A stretch of 7,009 bases of DNA from Candidatus Eiseniibacteriota bacterium (GTDB lineage Bacteria > JAFGKV01), in the NCBI GenBank assembly GCA_025453925.1, contig JALOPK010000178.1, forward strand, positions 1-7,009, read 5' to 3'. Below, piece by piece: positions 874 to 5,812 of the stretch; positions within the stretch are counted from its first letter, which is position 1; each line of letters starts with the position of its first letter. The translations under genes and the position numbers were made by a program. The notes beneath the pieces are model-generated. The model did not search any database. It saw nothing but the letters and a program-made list of their open reading frames with translations, and was not told where the DNA came from.

Positions 874-1740
874 CTATGCAGTCGCAGAGGGGGGTGGCGA
901 CAGAGGGAGGCGTGGCGTCTGTGCAGCCCCGGCGTCACGACCGTGGGGGCACACGTACAGGCATAATCCGCACACGGCGGTCGCCGGATCGCGCCGTCGC
1001 ATCCACTGGAAGTACCGATCGCACTTCCCGGCGTCGTAGCGCGCCTCGCGCGGTTCGTCCGGCCGGAATGCCCGGCCGGTGAAGGCGCGGACGGGGCAGA
1101 TGTCCACGCAGGCCCGGCAGTCGCCGCAACGATCCAAAACTGTCGTGGCGGCAGGAGCGAGCGGCGCATCGGTCAACACGGTGGTCCACCGGACCCTGGG
1201 ACCGGCCTCGGGCGTCACGAGCAGACAGCTCTTGCCGATCCACCCCAGACCCGCAAGACGGGCCGCAAGCTTGTGGGAGAAGGCGCCGCAGATCCTGACG
1301 CCGTCGGTTCGCTGCGAGGCGGGCACGGCCTTCGCACGGTGGCCCTGCGCGGCAAGCCATTCCGCGACCACGCCCGACAACCGGTCGAGCCGCACGTTGA
1401 CCAGTTCATACGCATCCCGGCGATAGGCAACCGCCACAGCGGGATCGGCACGACCAGGGAGCGGGTCGACCAGCTCGTGTCGTAGGGCGACGCCGAGGGA
1501 CACCGCCCTGGGGAACATCGCGATTGCTTCGCCCCCCTGAGACCGGATGTGGGCATGGGCCGGCCGCAAGTCCGCGATGCCGACGAAGTCGGCCCCGCAG
1601 CGAACGGCGTACTCCAGACATGGGCGATGCAGATCCGCTGACGCAACGATGGATAATCCCGCGCCGCCAGGAGCCAAGACGGGCAGGAGATCGCCGGGCG
1701 CATGGCTCTCCGGCCCCGGGCGTCGATGCGGGCGCGCCAT
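874..1740 (-). CDS. QueG-like 4Fe-4S double-cluster protein (epoxyqueuosine reductase family, function uncertain)
   Basis: The product has 288 residues if it starts at the ATG at 1738-1740. That start is preceded by the purine-rich site GGAAAGGAAA; an in-frame GTG 42 bp upstream (1780-1782) lacks a clear ribosome binding site. The C-terminal half has the QueG-family core: AGLGWIGKSCLL at 163-174, then CxxCxxCxxxCP (Cys 205, 208, 211, 215), Cys 240, and CxxCxxxCP (Cys 257, 260, 264). Eight cysteines suit two [4Fe-4S] clusters. True QueG reduces epoxyqueuosine to queuosine in tRNA using cobalamin. This protein is much shorter than E. coli QueG (about 380 residues), has no room for the C-terminal HEAT-like tRNA-binding repeats, and ends in a low-complexity Pro/Ala tail. 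It more likely belongs to the uncharacterised QueG-like paralogs. It lies 73 bp downstream of the kinase-like gene on the same strand, so cotranscription is plausible. The fold is confident; the substrate is unknown. Confidence 0.85.
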   Translation of the reverse strand: MARPHRRPGPESHAPGDLLPVLAPGGAGLSIVASADLHRPCLEYAVRCGADFVGIADLRPAHAHIRSQGGEAIAMFPRAVSLGVALRHELVDPLPGRADPAVAVAYRRDAYELVNVRLDRLSGVVAEWLAAQGHRAKAVPASQRTDGVRICGAFSHKLAARLAGLGWIGKSCLLVTPEAGPRVRWTTVLTDAPLAPAATTVLDRCGDCRACVDICPVRAFTGRAFRPDEPREARYDAGKCDRYFQWMRRRDPATAVCGLCLYVCPHGRDAGAAQTPRLPLSPPPSATA

Positions 1741-1741
1741 G

Positions 1742-1751
1742 TTTCCTTTCC
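1742..1751 (-). promoter_or_regulatory. Ribosome binding site deciding the start of the QueG-like gene
   Basis: Read on the minus strand, GGAAAGGAAA ends one base before the ATG at 1740, with its AAGGAA core at 1743-1748. The upstream GTG alternative at 1780-1782 has no comparable site, so the ATG at 1740 is preferred. Confidence 0.55.
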
Positions 1752-1759
1752 GCGTCAGG

Positions 1760-1777
1760 GCCTTCGCCCCGGAAGGC
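1760..1777. other. Short hairpin between the kinase-like and QueG-like genes
   Basis: GCCTTC (1760-1765) and GAAGGC (1772-1777) form a 6-bp stem with a 6-nt loop, about 20 bases upstream of the QueG-like start. No T-run follows on the minus strand. It could affect processing or translation of a shared transcript, but a chance palindrome is possible in GC-rich DNA. Confidence 0.3.
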
Positions 1778-1813
1778 GCCACCCGTTGCCGCCCCGCGGG
1801 AAGGAACCGGCCG

Positions 1814-2479
1814 TCACACCGGCTCGGGCAACGGCCTGGCCGGCGACGCCCAGGGCATCGAAAGCGTGAAGCTCTCGTCGGCGCTCAGCATCAGCCCATC
1901 GGTCGCCGTCAGGGTTGCCAGGTGCGCAGCCTCAGGAGGAAGGGGCAGGCCTGATGCCGTCATGCCCTCAGCGGCGATCGAGACATGCACCCGGTCGCCC
2001 TGCACGCCGGCCGCGATGCGCAGTGGCGCGGGATCCCGTGCCGCTCCGCAGAGCGTCAGCAGCACCTCGACAAGGCTCAGCTTCAAGTCCACGGGCCGCA
2101 CCAGCACGGGTGGAATCGTCGGCGGCATGTCGATGTGGAGCTGCAGGCCGCGGCGCGCCATGTGCCGGCCCATGAGCTGGGTAATCTCCGCTACATGATC
2201 GGACAGCACCGTCGGCACAGGCGGATCTTCCCCCAGGGCCTCCCTCGCCAACGTGCCCAGCGTCTGCACCTTGTCGCTCACGATCAGCGCCTGTTCGTAC
2301 ATGTCGTCGAGGCCGCCCGGCCCGCGGGGCATGCCTGCCGACCCTCTTGCCATGTAGAGCTGAATCCGGACCAGAAGCGCGGCCAACGGGTTATTAATGT
2401 CATGGGTCACCGGCGCCAACAGCCGCCCGACTACCGCCAGCCTGACAACCGCTCCCGACGGGGAGTCTCGGGTACTCAT
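1814..2479 (-). CDS. Small histidine-kinase-like protein with H-box and degenerate ATPase domain
   Basis: The product has 221 residues with no signal peptide, membrane segment or sensor domain, so it is predicted to be cytosolic. Residues 15-45 match the HisKA dimerisation/phosphoacceptor helix, with the H-box HDINNPLAAL (phosphoacceptor His26). Residues 55-82 would supply the second helix. Residues 132-147 correspond to the N-box helix, but the usual paired Asn positions appear to be Glu138 and Thr142. The G1 motif (DxGxG) is reduced to AEGMT around 170-174. The end, ESFTLSMP (202-209), resembles the last strand of a HATPase domain without its glycine-rich G2 box. ATP binding is therefore probably lost. 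The size and layout recall ChpT/Spo0B-type histidine phosphotransferases, which relay phosphate between response regulators; this comparison is by architecture only. No response regulator is in the window. The start at 2479 has a strong Shine-Dalgarno. It could alternatively be a decayed kinase. Confidence is high for the DHp domain and moderate for the relay role. Confidence 0.8.
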   Translation of the reverse strand: MSTRDSPSGAVVRLAVVGRLLAPVTHDINNPLAALLVRIQLYMARGSAGMPRGPGGLDDMYEQALIVSDKVQTLGTLAREALGEDPPVPTVLSDHVAEITQLMGRHMARRGLQLHIDMPPTIPPVLVRPVDLKLSLVEVLLTLCGAARDPAPLRIAAGVQGDRVHVSIAAEGMTASGLPLPPEAAHLATLTATDGLMLSADESFTLSMPWASPARPLPEPV

Positions 2480-2591: not shown

Positions 2592-2671
2592 CGCTCTGCT
2601 CTTGCGCCATGCGCACGGCGGCGTTTCGAGTCCCCGTCACCACCGCCCCGCACTACTTTGCCGAGGCCACC

Positions 2672-5600
2672 ATGTTCAAGCCCGTGTCGCCCACTCTCTC
2701 TTTGGTGCCCCTGGAGCACCGTATCCTCGAGTTCTGGGATCGCGACCGCACGTTCGACAAGCGGCGCGCCATGAACGCCGGGGGAACCCCATGGTCGTTC
2801 CTCGACGGACCGATTACCGCCAACAATCCCATGGGAGTCCACCACGCGTGGGGGAGAACGTACAAGGACGTGTTCCAGCGCTACAGAGCCATGCGCGGCC
2901 ACCGGCTCCGGTACCAGAACGGGTATGACTGCCAGGGACTCTGGGTGGAGGTCGAGGTAGAGAAGGAACTGGGCTTCACGTCCAAAAGGGATATCGAAGC
3001 GTACGGGATGGGGCGCTTCGTGGAGCGGTGCAAGGAGCGTGTCTTCAAGTTTTCCAGGATCCAGACACAACAGTCGATTCGCCTGGGATACTGGATGGAC
3101 TGGTCCGACTCCTACTACACCATGAGCGACGAGAACAACTACACCATCTGGCTGTTCCTCCGCCGGTGTCACGATCATGGCTGGATCTATCAGGGTCACG
3201 ACGTCATGCCATGGTGCCCCCGGTGCAGTTGCGCCCTCTCCGAGCATGAGATCGCCACCGAGGGCTACCGGGAACTCACCCATGCATCGGTGTATCTGCT
3301 GTTTCCGCTGATCGACCGTGACGATGAGCACCTCCTGGTGTGGACCACCACCCCGTGGACCTTGAGCTCCAATGTGGCGGCGGCGGTACATCCCGAACTG
3401 ACCTACCTCAAGGTCCGGCAGCACGGGAAGACCCTGTACCTCTCGGCCGGCGCGGAGCGCGTGCTGGGGGACGGGTATGAAGTGCTTGACCGGGTCACCG
3501 GTGCCGACATGGCCGGCTGGCGCTATCGCGGTCCTTTTGACGACCTGCCCGCGCAGCAGGGCGTCGCCCACCGGGTGATTCTGTGGGACGCGGTGTCCGA
3601 CACCGAGGGCACCGGCATCGTCCACATCGCTCCCGGCTGCGGCAAGGAAGACTTCATGCTGTCCACGGAGTGGGACCTGCGGCCGATCGCCCCCCTGGAT
3701 GAGTACGGCGTGTTCATCCCCGGGTTCGAACCTCTCACGGGGGGCACCGCGGCCGGCGTCGCGCCGTTAGTGTTCGACTGGCTGCGGGATCACGGCATCC
3801 TCTACCGAATCGAAGACTACACCCATCGCTACCCTGTCTGCTGGCGGTGCGGCTCCGAGCTTGTGTTCCGGCTGGTGGACGAGTGGTTCATCTCCATGGA
3901 GGAGTTGCGGCCGCGCATCATGGCCGTGGCGGAGCGCATCACGTGGATGCCTTCGTTCGGCCTTGAACGCGAGCTGGACTGGCTCCGGAATATGCACGAC
4001 TGGTGCATCTCCAAGAAGCGATTCTGGGGTCTCGCCCTCCCGATCTTCGTGTGTCCGGAAGGCCACTTTCACGTGGTCGGCAGCGAGGAAGAGCTGAGGG
4101 AGCGCGCGGTCGAAGGCTGGGAGGAGTTCCGGGGGCATTCGCCGCACCGCCCGTGGGTCGATGCCGTGAAGATCGCCTGCCCATCCTGCGGCGCGCGCGC
4201 CGCGCGCATTCCTGACGTCGGGAACCCGTGGCTCGATGCCGGCATCGTCCCGTATTCGACTCTGGGCTACCGGAAGGGCGCGAGCACCTGGGCGGAGTGG
4301 TTTCCCCCCGCGTTCATCACCGAGTGCTTTCCCGGCCAATTCCGGAACTGGTTCTACAGCCTGCTGGCCATGAGCACGGTGATGGAGAACCGGGAGCCCT
4401 TCAAGGTCGTGCTGGGGCACGCATCGGTCCGAGACGAGCACGGCGAGGAGATGCACAAGTCCAAGGGCAATGCCATCTGGTTCGACGATGCGGCCGAGAC
4501 CATCGGAGTCGAAGCCATGCGGTGGATTTTCAGCAGGCAGAACCCCTATGTGAACCTCAACTTCGGCATGGGGCAAAGCACGGAGGTCGTCCGCCGGCTT
4601 TCCACCTTGTGGAATTCCTATGCGTTCTTCGTGACCTATGCCAACGTCGATGGCGTCGATCACTCGAACCTGCCGCAGGCTCCGCCCGCGCCATCTCTCC
4701 TGGACCGGTGGATGCTGGCGAGGCTGGCCCAACTCGCCCGGGATGGCCGCGCCGCCATGGAGGGGTATGAGCTCGCCGCTTTCATCAAGGGGGCCGAAGC
4801 CTTCATCGACGACCTGTCCAACTGGTACATCCGGCGCAGCCGGCGCCGGTTCTGGAAGAGCCAATCCGATATGGACAAGCAGTCGGCCTATGCGACGCTC
4901 TATCATACGCTGCTCGGCGCCTGCCGGATTCTCGCACCGGTGATTCCCTTCCTGACCGAAGAGATCTATCAGAATCTGGCACCGTTGGGCTCCCCATACT
5001 CCCGAGGCAGCGTGCACCTGGAGGATTACCCCACCCTGGAACCCACGGAGCAGGAGAACGAGCTGGTGCGGACCATGGCGCTCGCCCACGAGATCGTCAC
5101 CATCGGCCATGCGGCGCGCAACAAGGCGGGAATCAAGGTGCGGCAGCCTCTGGAGGAGATCGTGATCCGCGGCTGGCCCGCGGCGCACGAGGAGGCCTGG
5201 CCGCTGGTGGAACCCATCGTCCGCGACGAGCTGAACGTGAAACGAATCCGGCTCGCCGAGGAAGGAGAGCAGCTGGCGACACCGGTGGTGAAGCTCGACT
5301 TTGCCAAGCTCGGCCCGCGGCTGGGCGCCAGGGTCAAGGTGCTGGCACAGCGGGTGCAGGCGGAACCGTCGGCTGTCGCGCGATGCCTCGGCGCCGGCGC
5401 CGTGTGGACGACCGATCTGGAGGGCGCGCCCGTGGACGTCAACCCGGACGAAGTCACCATCCAGTACGTGTCGCCGCAGGGATGGGTGTTCCAGAGTGAA
5501 GGCGCTTTTGAGGCACTCCTCAACGTGACGGTGAGCGAGGCCCTTGCCAGGGAAGGCGCGGCGAGGGATCTCGTGCGGCATATCCAGAGCCTGCGCAAGG

Positions 5601-5812
5601 ATGCCGGCCTGGAGGTCAGCGACCGGATTGCCGTCACTCTCTCTTCGATCCCGGGCATCGAGGCGGTTCTGGCCGAGCAGGGCGACTATGTCGCACAAGA
5701 GGTGCTGGCCGTCAGCATCGTAGTGGGCGACCCGGGCGACGCAGCGGCTACAACCCAGTTCACACTCGGTGACGCCACCGTGACCATCGGCCTGCATCGT
5801 GCCGGCAGCTAG
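2672..5812 (+). CDS. ileS: Isoleucine--tRNA ligase, type 2 (IleRS2), with altered HIGH (GVHH) and KMSKS (EMHKS) motifs
   Basis: The product has 1046 residues, the usual full length, and charges tRNA-Ile with isoleucine in the cytosol using ATP. The ATG at 2672 is chosen because GAGG sits five bases upstream and the protein then begins with the usual LVPLEHRILEFW helix. An upstream in-frame ATG at 2609 lacks a binding site. Order of parts: Rossmann first half (about 35-185) with DGPITANNPMGVHHAWG at 45-61; Zn-type CPRC at 182-185; CP1 editing domain with WTTTPWT at 224-230 and GTGIVHIAPGCGKEDF at 313-328; CWRC at 390-393; DWCISKKRFWG at 443-453; the EMHKSKGN loop at 593-600; an anticodon-binding helical domain (about 675-790); and a C-terminal domain with AGIKVRQPL at 819-827, typical of IleRS2. 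The IleRS1-type C-terminal zinc domain is absent. HIGH is GVHH (55-58), and DCHGLP is DCQGLW (86-91). IleRS2 enzymes are naturally mupirocin-resistant as a class; resistance here is inferred. Confidence 0.96.
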   Translation: MFKPVSPTLSLVPLEHRILEFWDRDRTFDKRRAMNAGGTPWSFLDGPITANNPMGVHHAWGRTYKDVFQRYRAMRGHRLRYQNGYDCQGLWVEVEVEKELGFTSKRDIEAYGMGRFVERCKERVFKFSRIQTQQSIRLGYWMDWSDSYYTMSDENNYTIWLFLRRCHDHGWIYQGHDVMPWCPRCSCALSEHEIATEGYRELTHASVYLLFPLIDRDDEHLLVWTTTPWTLSSNVAAAVHPELTYLKVRQHGKTLYLSAGAERVLGDGYEVLDRVTGADMAGWRYRGPFDDLPAQQGVAHRVILWDAVSDTEGTGIVHIAPGCGKEDFMLSTEWDLRPIAPLDEYGVFIPGFEPLTGGTAAGVAPLVFDWLRDHGILYRIEDYTHRYPVCWRCGSELVFRLVDEWFISMEELRPRIMAVAERITWMPSFGLERELDWLRNMHDWCISKKRFWGLALPIFVCPEGHFHVVGSEEELRERAVEGWEEFRGHSPHRPWVDAVKIACPSCGARAARIPDVGNPWLDAGIVPYSTLGYRKGASTWAEWFPPAFITECFPGQFRNWFYSLLAMSTVMENREPFKVVLGHASVRDEHGEEMHKSKGNAIWFDDAAETIGVEAMRWIFSRQNPYVNLNFGMGQSTEVVRRLSTLWNSYAFFVTYANVDGVDHSNLPQAPPAPSLLDRWMLARLAQLARDGRAAMEGYELAAFIKGAEAFIDDLSNWYIRRSRRRFWKSQSDMDKQSAYATLYHTLLGACRILAPVIPFLTEEIYQNLAPLGSPYSRGSVHLEDYPTLEPTEQENELVRTMALAHEIVTIGHAARNKAGIKVRQPLEEIVIRGWPAAHEEAWPLVEPIVRDELNVKRIRLAEEGEQLATPVVKLDFAKLGPRLGARVKVLAQRVQAEPSAVARCLGAGAVWTTDLEGAPVDVNPDEVTIQYVSPQGWVFQSEGAFEALLNVTVSEALAREGAARDLVRHIQSLRKDAGLEVSDRIAVTLSSIPGIEAVLAEQGDYVAQEVLAVSIVVGDPGDAAATTQFTLGDATVTIGLHRAGS

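Follow-up and report, generated by a model that had tools for sequence, protein, structure and literature searches.

The ileS gene in the window (the whole stretch of 7,009 nucleotides that was analysed) probably encodes an active housekeeping type 2 isoleucyl-tRNA synthetase (IleRS) of a deep G/AXHH branch, predicted to be intrinsically hyper-resistant to mupirocin and inherited as the sole copy. As a housekeeping function the gene is ordinary, and the exchange in its HIGH signature is already published and not new. That the two class I signatures change jointly, however, is described in no text found in the literature searched. The lineage in which they do so spans records of many bacterial phyla, some archaeal MAGs and cultured Chloroflexota, and in it GXHH never occurs without an altered KMSKS loop.

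The window encodes a type 2 IleRS with GVHH in place of HIGH

The list of open reading frames holds one long frame, 2609-5812. Its extension to 2609 is mechanical only, and alignment with the N-termini of relatives (MFTPVSS.. in L006, MFRQVQT.. in L007) favours the ATG at 2672. The protein scores 685-686 bits against TIGR00392 (ileS), over the curated cut-off of 621, and has Pfam matches to tRNA-synt_1 (the class I core), Anticodon_1 and DUF5915. Its nearest solved relatives by phmmer are P. megaterium IleRS2 (8c8w, 8c9d, 8c8v, 8c8u) and T. thermophilus IleRS (1ile). A structure nearer than P. megaterium IleRS2 did not turn up; the match to that enzyme covers residues 13-1015 with E-values down to 5e-202. 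This alignment extends to residue 1004 of the 1032 in the solved chain, which together with DUF5915 indicates that the type 2 C-terminal region is present. In a tree calculated after removal of the motif columns, the protein falls with IleRS2, split from seven IleRS1 at 100% SH-aLRT. Both profile score and tree position thus bear out the type 2 identity given in the initial annotation.

The codons GGA GTC CAC CAC at 2834-2845, in the frame from 2672, encode G55, V56, H57 and H58, so that glycine stands at the first HIGH position and histidine at the third, as in G/AXHH enzymes. In an unbroken phmmer alignment GVHH lies opposite HVGH in 1ile, 8c9d, 8c8v and 8c8u and opposite GVHH in 8c8w, and the alignment with solved IleRS places no normal HxGH elsewhere in the protein. 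The exchange and its position had therefore been read correctly from the sequence. GVHH is also found in a genome of the same genus (81% identity), and AVHH in one of the same family (71%).

Table 1. Coordinates of ileS and its motifs in the window and, in the last line, of divergent IleRS1 loci in other genomes
Feature	Position	Strand	Basis or remark
ileS, type 2 isoleucyl-tRNA synthetase, 1046 aa	2672..5812	+	TIGR00392, Pfam domains, solved relatives, start by alignment
GPITANN, aa 46-52, in place of GPPTANG ahead of the HIGH motif	2807..2827	+	clade counts
GVHH, non-canonical HIGH signature, aa 55-58	2834..2845	+	translation, alignment to solved IleRS, relatives
GYDCQGLWVE, aa 84-93, in place of GWDTHGLPVE; Asp86 retained	2921..2950	+	alignments, clade counts
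VWTTTPWTLSSN, threonine-rich editing motif, aa 223-234, intact	3338..3373	+	alignments
VHIAPGCGKED, editing-site segment, aa 317-327; His318 and Asp327 retained	3620..3652	+	alignments
PGQFRNWF, aa 554-561, in place of DQTRGWF; Gln556 and Trp560 retained	4331..4354	+	alignments
EMHKS, aa 593-597, in place of KMSKS; K596 retained, first Lys lost, Ser replaced by His595	4448..4462	+	clade counts
DUF5915 C-terminal domain, aa 848-1043	5213..5800	+	PF19302, E 3.7e-38
HLGT IleRS1 loci	L029 1108-3936	-	also L149, L150, L151

Further core motifs are changed together in one clade

The architecture around GVHH had been described as otherwise intact. This did not hold: three further core motifs, KMSKS among them, are altered together in a clade of enzymes to which the window IleRS belongs. 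Relatives were collected by a profile scan of GTDB genome contigs with a six-member alignment, which gave more than 570 among the matches listed, of which 80 were kept; a second whole-genome search added others. The clade members are 45-81% identical to the window IleRS across ~1000 residues. They share a motif set in which GXHH is accompanied by xMHKS for KMSKS, GFDxQGLWxE for GWDTHGLPxE and GPITANN for GPPTANG.

All 101 sampled members have both G/AXHH and MHK, the latter partly by definition, since the clade was delimited by MHK. Because of this delimitation, the informative points are that every MHK enzyme is also G/AXHH and that these enzymes form a single clade without the motif columns. 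Lysine is found at the first KMSKS position in none of the 101 (Glu593 in the window IleRS) and K596 is invariant; H595 is present in 101/101, as against serine in 32/32 other IleRS. The comparison set of 25 other IleRS2 (17 GXHH, 8 HXGH) shows W85 and P91 throughout, whereas clade members have F/Y85 (101/101) and W91 (100/101). Likewise I48 occurs in 96 and N52 in 100 of the 101, against P48 in 25/25 and G52 in 24/25 of the other IleRS2. One seed in the contig scan was of the GPITANN type, so that this motif was partly selected for there, while GXHH and MHKS were not seeds; the same pattern is seen in the clade members among L006-L010 and L118-L135, which came from seed-free BLAST-based genome searches.

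Residues at the substrate sites are retained. P47, D86, Q556 and W560, the equivalents of the isoleucine-binding Pro46, Asp85, Gln554 and Trp558 of T. thermophilus, are invariant in the six-member alignment. Also conserved there are T225-T227, N234, H318 and D327, positions with an established role in editing; for His318 and Asp327 it is known from His333 and Asp342 of E. coli IleRS. Since the editing residues are kept, proofreading is probably normal.

Records in the clade are labelled Chloroflexota, Planctomycetota, Latescibacterota, Neomarinimicrobiota, Poribacteria, Armatimonadota, Actinomycetota (Rubrobacter), Spirochaetota and archaeal MAGs, uncultured records being given as labelled. 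The archaeal ones come from Bathyarchaeota, Brockarchaeota and Thorarchaeota (L070, L079, L095, L098, L110, L111), which would suggest transfer of a bacterial-type enzyme unless the records are contaminated. One member, L123 (G182:C188:17939-21115), is listed with a single in-frame TGA in the matched stretch, which could reflect an error, a pseudogene or recoding.

In a quick tree of 57 sequences, with motif columns removed and SH-aLRT support, the MHKS clade forms one branch (100%), sister to all other IleRS2 sampled. The MHK state changes once on this tree and the GXHH/HXGH state four times, and a tree with a single GXHH group is rejected (AU p 0.00065). By this phylogeny GXHH arose more than once or reverted, in agreement with the multiple origins or reversals of Brkic et al. 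2023, whose set of 163 IleRS2 includes 86 with G/AXHH and who inferred two or more origins of GXHH, one of them in a minor clade (PMC10485003). The ancestor of that minor or early clade (node 747) is GXHH, and for the early IleRS2 branch the legend names few sequences, of Planctomycetota and Chloroflexi (PMC10485003). The clade of the window IleRS is probably the same: both are GXHH throughout, rich in Chloroflexota with some Planctomycetota, and deep sisters of other IleRS2. Changes in KMSKS and in GWDTHGLP go unmentioned in the text of the paper, and no assayed member of its minor clade was identified (PMC10485003). Our literature search returned no description of an MHKS or KMSKS-variant IleRS; the change may nevertheless be visible in the alignment figure of the published work.

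What drove these changes has two possible answers. The loops of an active IleRS may have been shaped by another inhibitor, by temperature or by drift in an old ancestor, leaving mupirocin resistance as a by-product. We give this a substantial chance, somewhat short of even. The depth of the clade, its spread over many phyla including archaeal MAGs, its fixed motif set and the repeated origin or reversal of GXHH would all fit. Antibiotic selection, on the other hand, is favoured by Brkic et al. (PMC10485003), and the present data cannot separate the two. A by-product origin is compatible with an intrinsically resistant housekeeping enzyme, because the two readings differ solely in what caused the change.

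Predicted catalysis and mupirocin resistance

The initial annotation presented GXHH as a natural IleRS2 variant tied to extreme mupirocin resistance with catalysis preserved, and this is published, with a Ki in the millimolar range (PMC10485003). For the ALHH IleRS2 of D. radiodurans the mupirocin Ki is 6.6 mM, motif exchange in either direction shifts the Ki ~200- to 800-fold, and engineered GVHH enzymes stay active (PMC10485003). Crystals of GVHH-PmIleRS2 show the third histidine in the place of the first and an adenylate analogue bound as in the wild type, with a clash with mupirocin in a model (PMC10485003).

We propose that the window IleRS charges tRNA-Ile by the usual class I chemistry. 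With Gly55 in the first place, His57 would act on the transition state in place of the absent first histidine, a role proposed because the third histidine replaces the first in the GVHH-PmIleRS2 structures. In the remodelled KMSKS loop K596 would be the sole remaining lysine, and His595 could plausibly compensate at the ATP phosphates for the lost first one. The bulky His57 would clash with mupirocin, for which reason the enzyme should be intrinsically hyper-resistant, a trait inherited with the only ileS copy and not with an acquired resistance determinant. By analogy with the published enzymes hyper-resistance is likely; no mupirocin Ki or assay for any clade member was found in the literature searched.

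The naturally occurring G/AXHH enzymes assayed in the published work, those of D. radiodurans (ALHH) and S. griseus, are taken as examples of the major clade (PMC10485003), whose members resemble the window IleRS in being type 2, in the exchange of HIGH positions 1 and 3 and in domain order. They differ elsewhere in the core: the 17 sampled major-clade GXHH enzymes, a comparison that leaves out S. griseus and D. radiodurans, all retain KMSK (as KMSKS or KMSKH), GWDT(H/Q)GLPVE and DQTRGW, whereas the corresponding motifs of the window enzyme read EMHKS, GYDCQGLWVE and PGQFRNW. Since xMHKS departs from the KMSKS of these 17, carrying over the role of His57 and the Ki is an extrapolation. Conversely, other GXHH enzymes work with KMSKS, so the KMSKS change is not a general requirement for GXHH. 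The natural P. megaterium enzyme, unlike the window's GVHH and EMHKS, combines HVGH with KMSKS.

Both class I signatures are rewritten together, along with GWDxHGLPxE and GPPxANG. There is a fair chance, though less than even, that the lineage works with a changed set of ATP-binding groups, in which one lysine and two relocated histidines, H57 and H595, stand in for the usual histidine and two lysines. This would be a second, naturally evolved solution to class I amino acid activation, mupirocin-resistant by design. How far class I hallmark motifs can be rewritten with function kept, and whether the changes depend on one another, is testable in this clade. Intrinsic mupirocin resistance would be predicted for many uncultured environmental bacteria.

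ileS is the only IleRS gene found in the source genome and its relatives

The source genome, a MAG, is 82% complete and comprises 3.9 Mb on 502 contigs. No second IleRS was found in it; the other matches are ValRS and further class I enzymes. The C19 fragment, which scores 92 bits to TIGR00392, was considered as a second IleRS and proved to be the N-terminus of a ValRS (PPPNITGALHMGH, GTDHAGIATQ). Given the completeness and fragmentation of the MAG, a second ileS could be absent from the assembly; the genomes of the same genus (94% complete) and the same family (98% complete) also have one IleRS each. The initial annotation had left open whether the gene was the only IleRS or a second copy, and the search it called for supports the former in the MAG and its two nearest relatives and gives no sign of the latter. 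The order deoD - kinase-like gene - ileS - polyprenyl glycosylphosphotransferase is kept in the same-genus genome, which fits vertical inheritance of ileS.

In S. aureus, as in certain Bacillaceae, IleRS2 serves as a resistance copy (PMC10485003), and Ktedonobacter-type genomes hold two IleRS2. It is nevertheless very improbable that ileS in the window is a dispensable extra copy that confers resistance, in the manner of plasmid ileS2/MupA, or the self-resistance gene of a producer of a mupirocin-like compound. The single IleRS in all three genomes largely refutes this, and the shared neighbours in the sister genome argue against it, as does the lack of mobile-element genes among the window genes scanned. 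The search for mupirocin-like biosynthesis genes gave only two stand-alone ketosynthases in the source genome and no modular polyketide synthase, so that the enzyme is unlikely to protect a producer of mupirocin from its own product. MupA and MupB are likewise IleRS, and their models match the window enzyme at 571 and 558 bits, far under the curated NCBIfam cut-off of 1900, which rejects membership; they are acquired resistance enzymes, whereas the window enzyme is the sole ileS found in its genome.

Clade members elsewhere occur alone or paired

In Thermogemmatispora carboxidivorans PM5, a named strain with a 5.6 Mb record, no IleRS but the clade type exceeds the cut-off, and the same is true of chromosome records of a Dehalococcoidia (OY282441.1) and a Thorarchaeota (CP070761.1). 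Because it is the sole IleRS in T. carboxidivorans, the clade-type enzyme must, judging from the genome sequence, charge tRNA-Ile. Hence an impaired or repurposed paralogue that lost tRNA-Ile charging through its HIGH and KMSKS changes is hardly credible, even though the first histidine and first lysine are missing and the KMSKS serine is now histidine. It would have to be the only IleRS found in T. carboxidivorans and in the source, same-genus and same-family genomes; it retains its anticodon-binding domain and editing residues along with Asp86, Gln556, Trp560 and K596; and the identity of clade members to the window IleRS over ~1000 residues implies strong constraint. A sequencing, binning or assembly error deserves virtually no weight, for although the source is a fragmented MAG, an artefact is refuted by two independent sister genomes, which have the same motif or its A-variant, and by ~100 others, isolates included.

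Three Ktedonobacter/Ktedonospora genomes carry two GVHH IleRS2 each, of which one has KMSKS and the other PMHKS (L154-L156 with L160-L162). Because of this second IleRS2, some enzymes of the clade may not be the principal IleRS of their cell, and the GVHH/KMSKS enzyme and its clade-type partner form a natural pair for comparison.

A separate observation concerns IleRS1. In 3/3 genomes searched of one order, IleRS1 has HLGT for HIGH, with threonine for the fourth histidine, together with KMSKK; no other IleRS copy in these genomes matched at the cut-off used. By contrast, Brkic et al. found HXGH in all IleRS1 that they sampled (PMC10485003).

Genes and signals near ileS

No T-box, other RNA leader or tRNA was found, and one promoter-like and one terminator-like match are at chance level. 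The gene at 874-1782 (-) encodes a double 4Fe-4S protein related to QueG and reductive dehalogenases, far below both cut-offs, with no match beside ileS in the sister-genome stretches read. Between it and ileS, 1814-2479 (-) encodes a small protein that has an H-box resembling that of histidine kinases (HDINNPLAAL) but no N-box asparagine recognisable by eye; its matches adjoin ileS in both sister genomes (61% and 37% identity).
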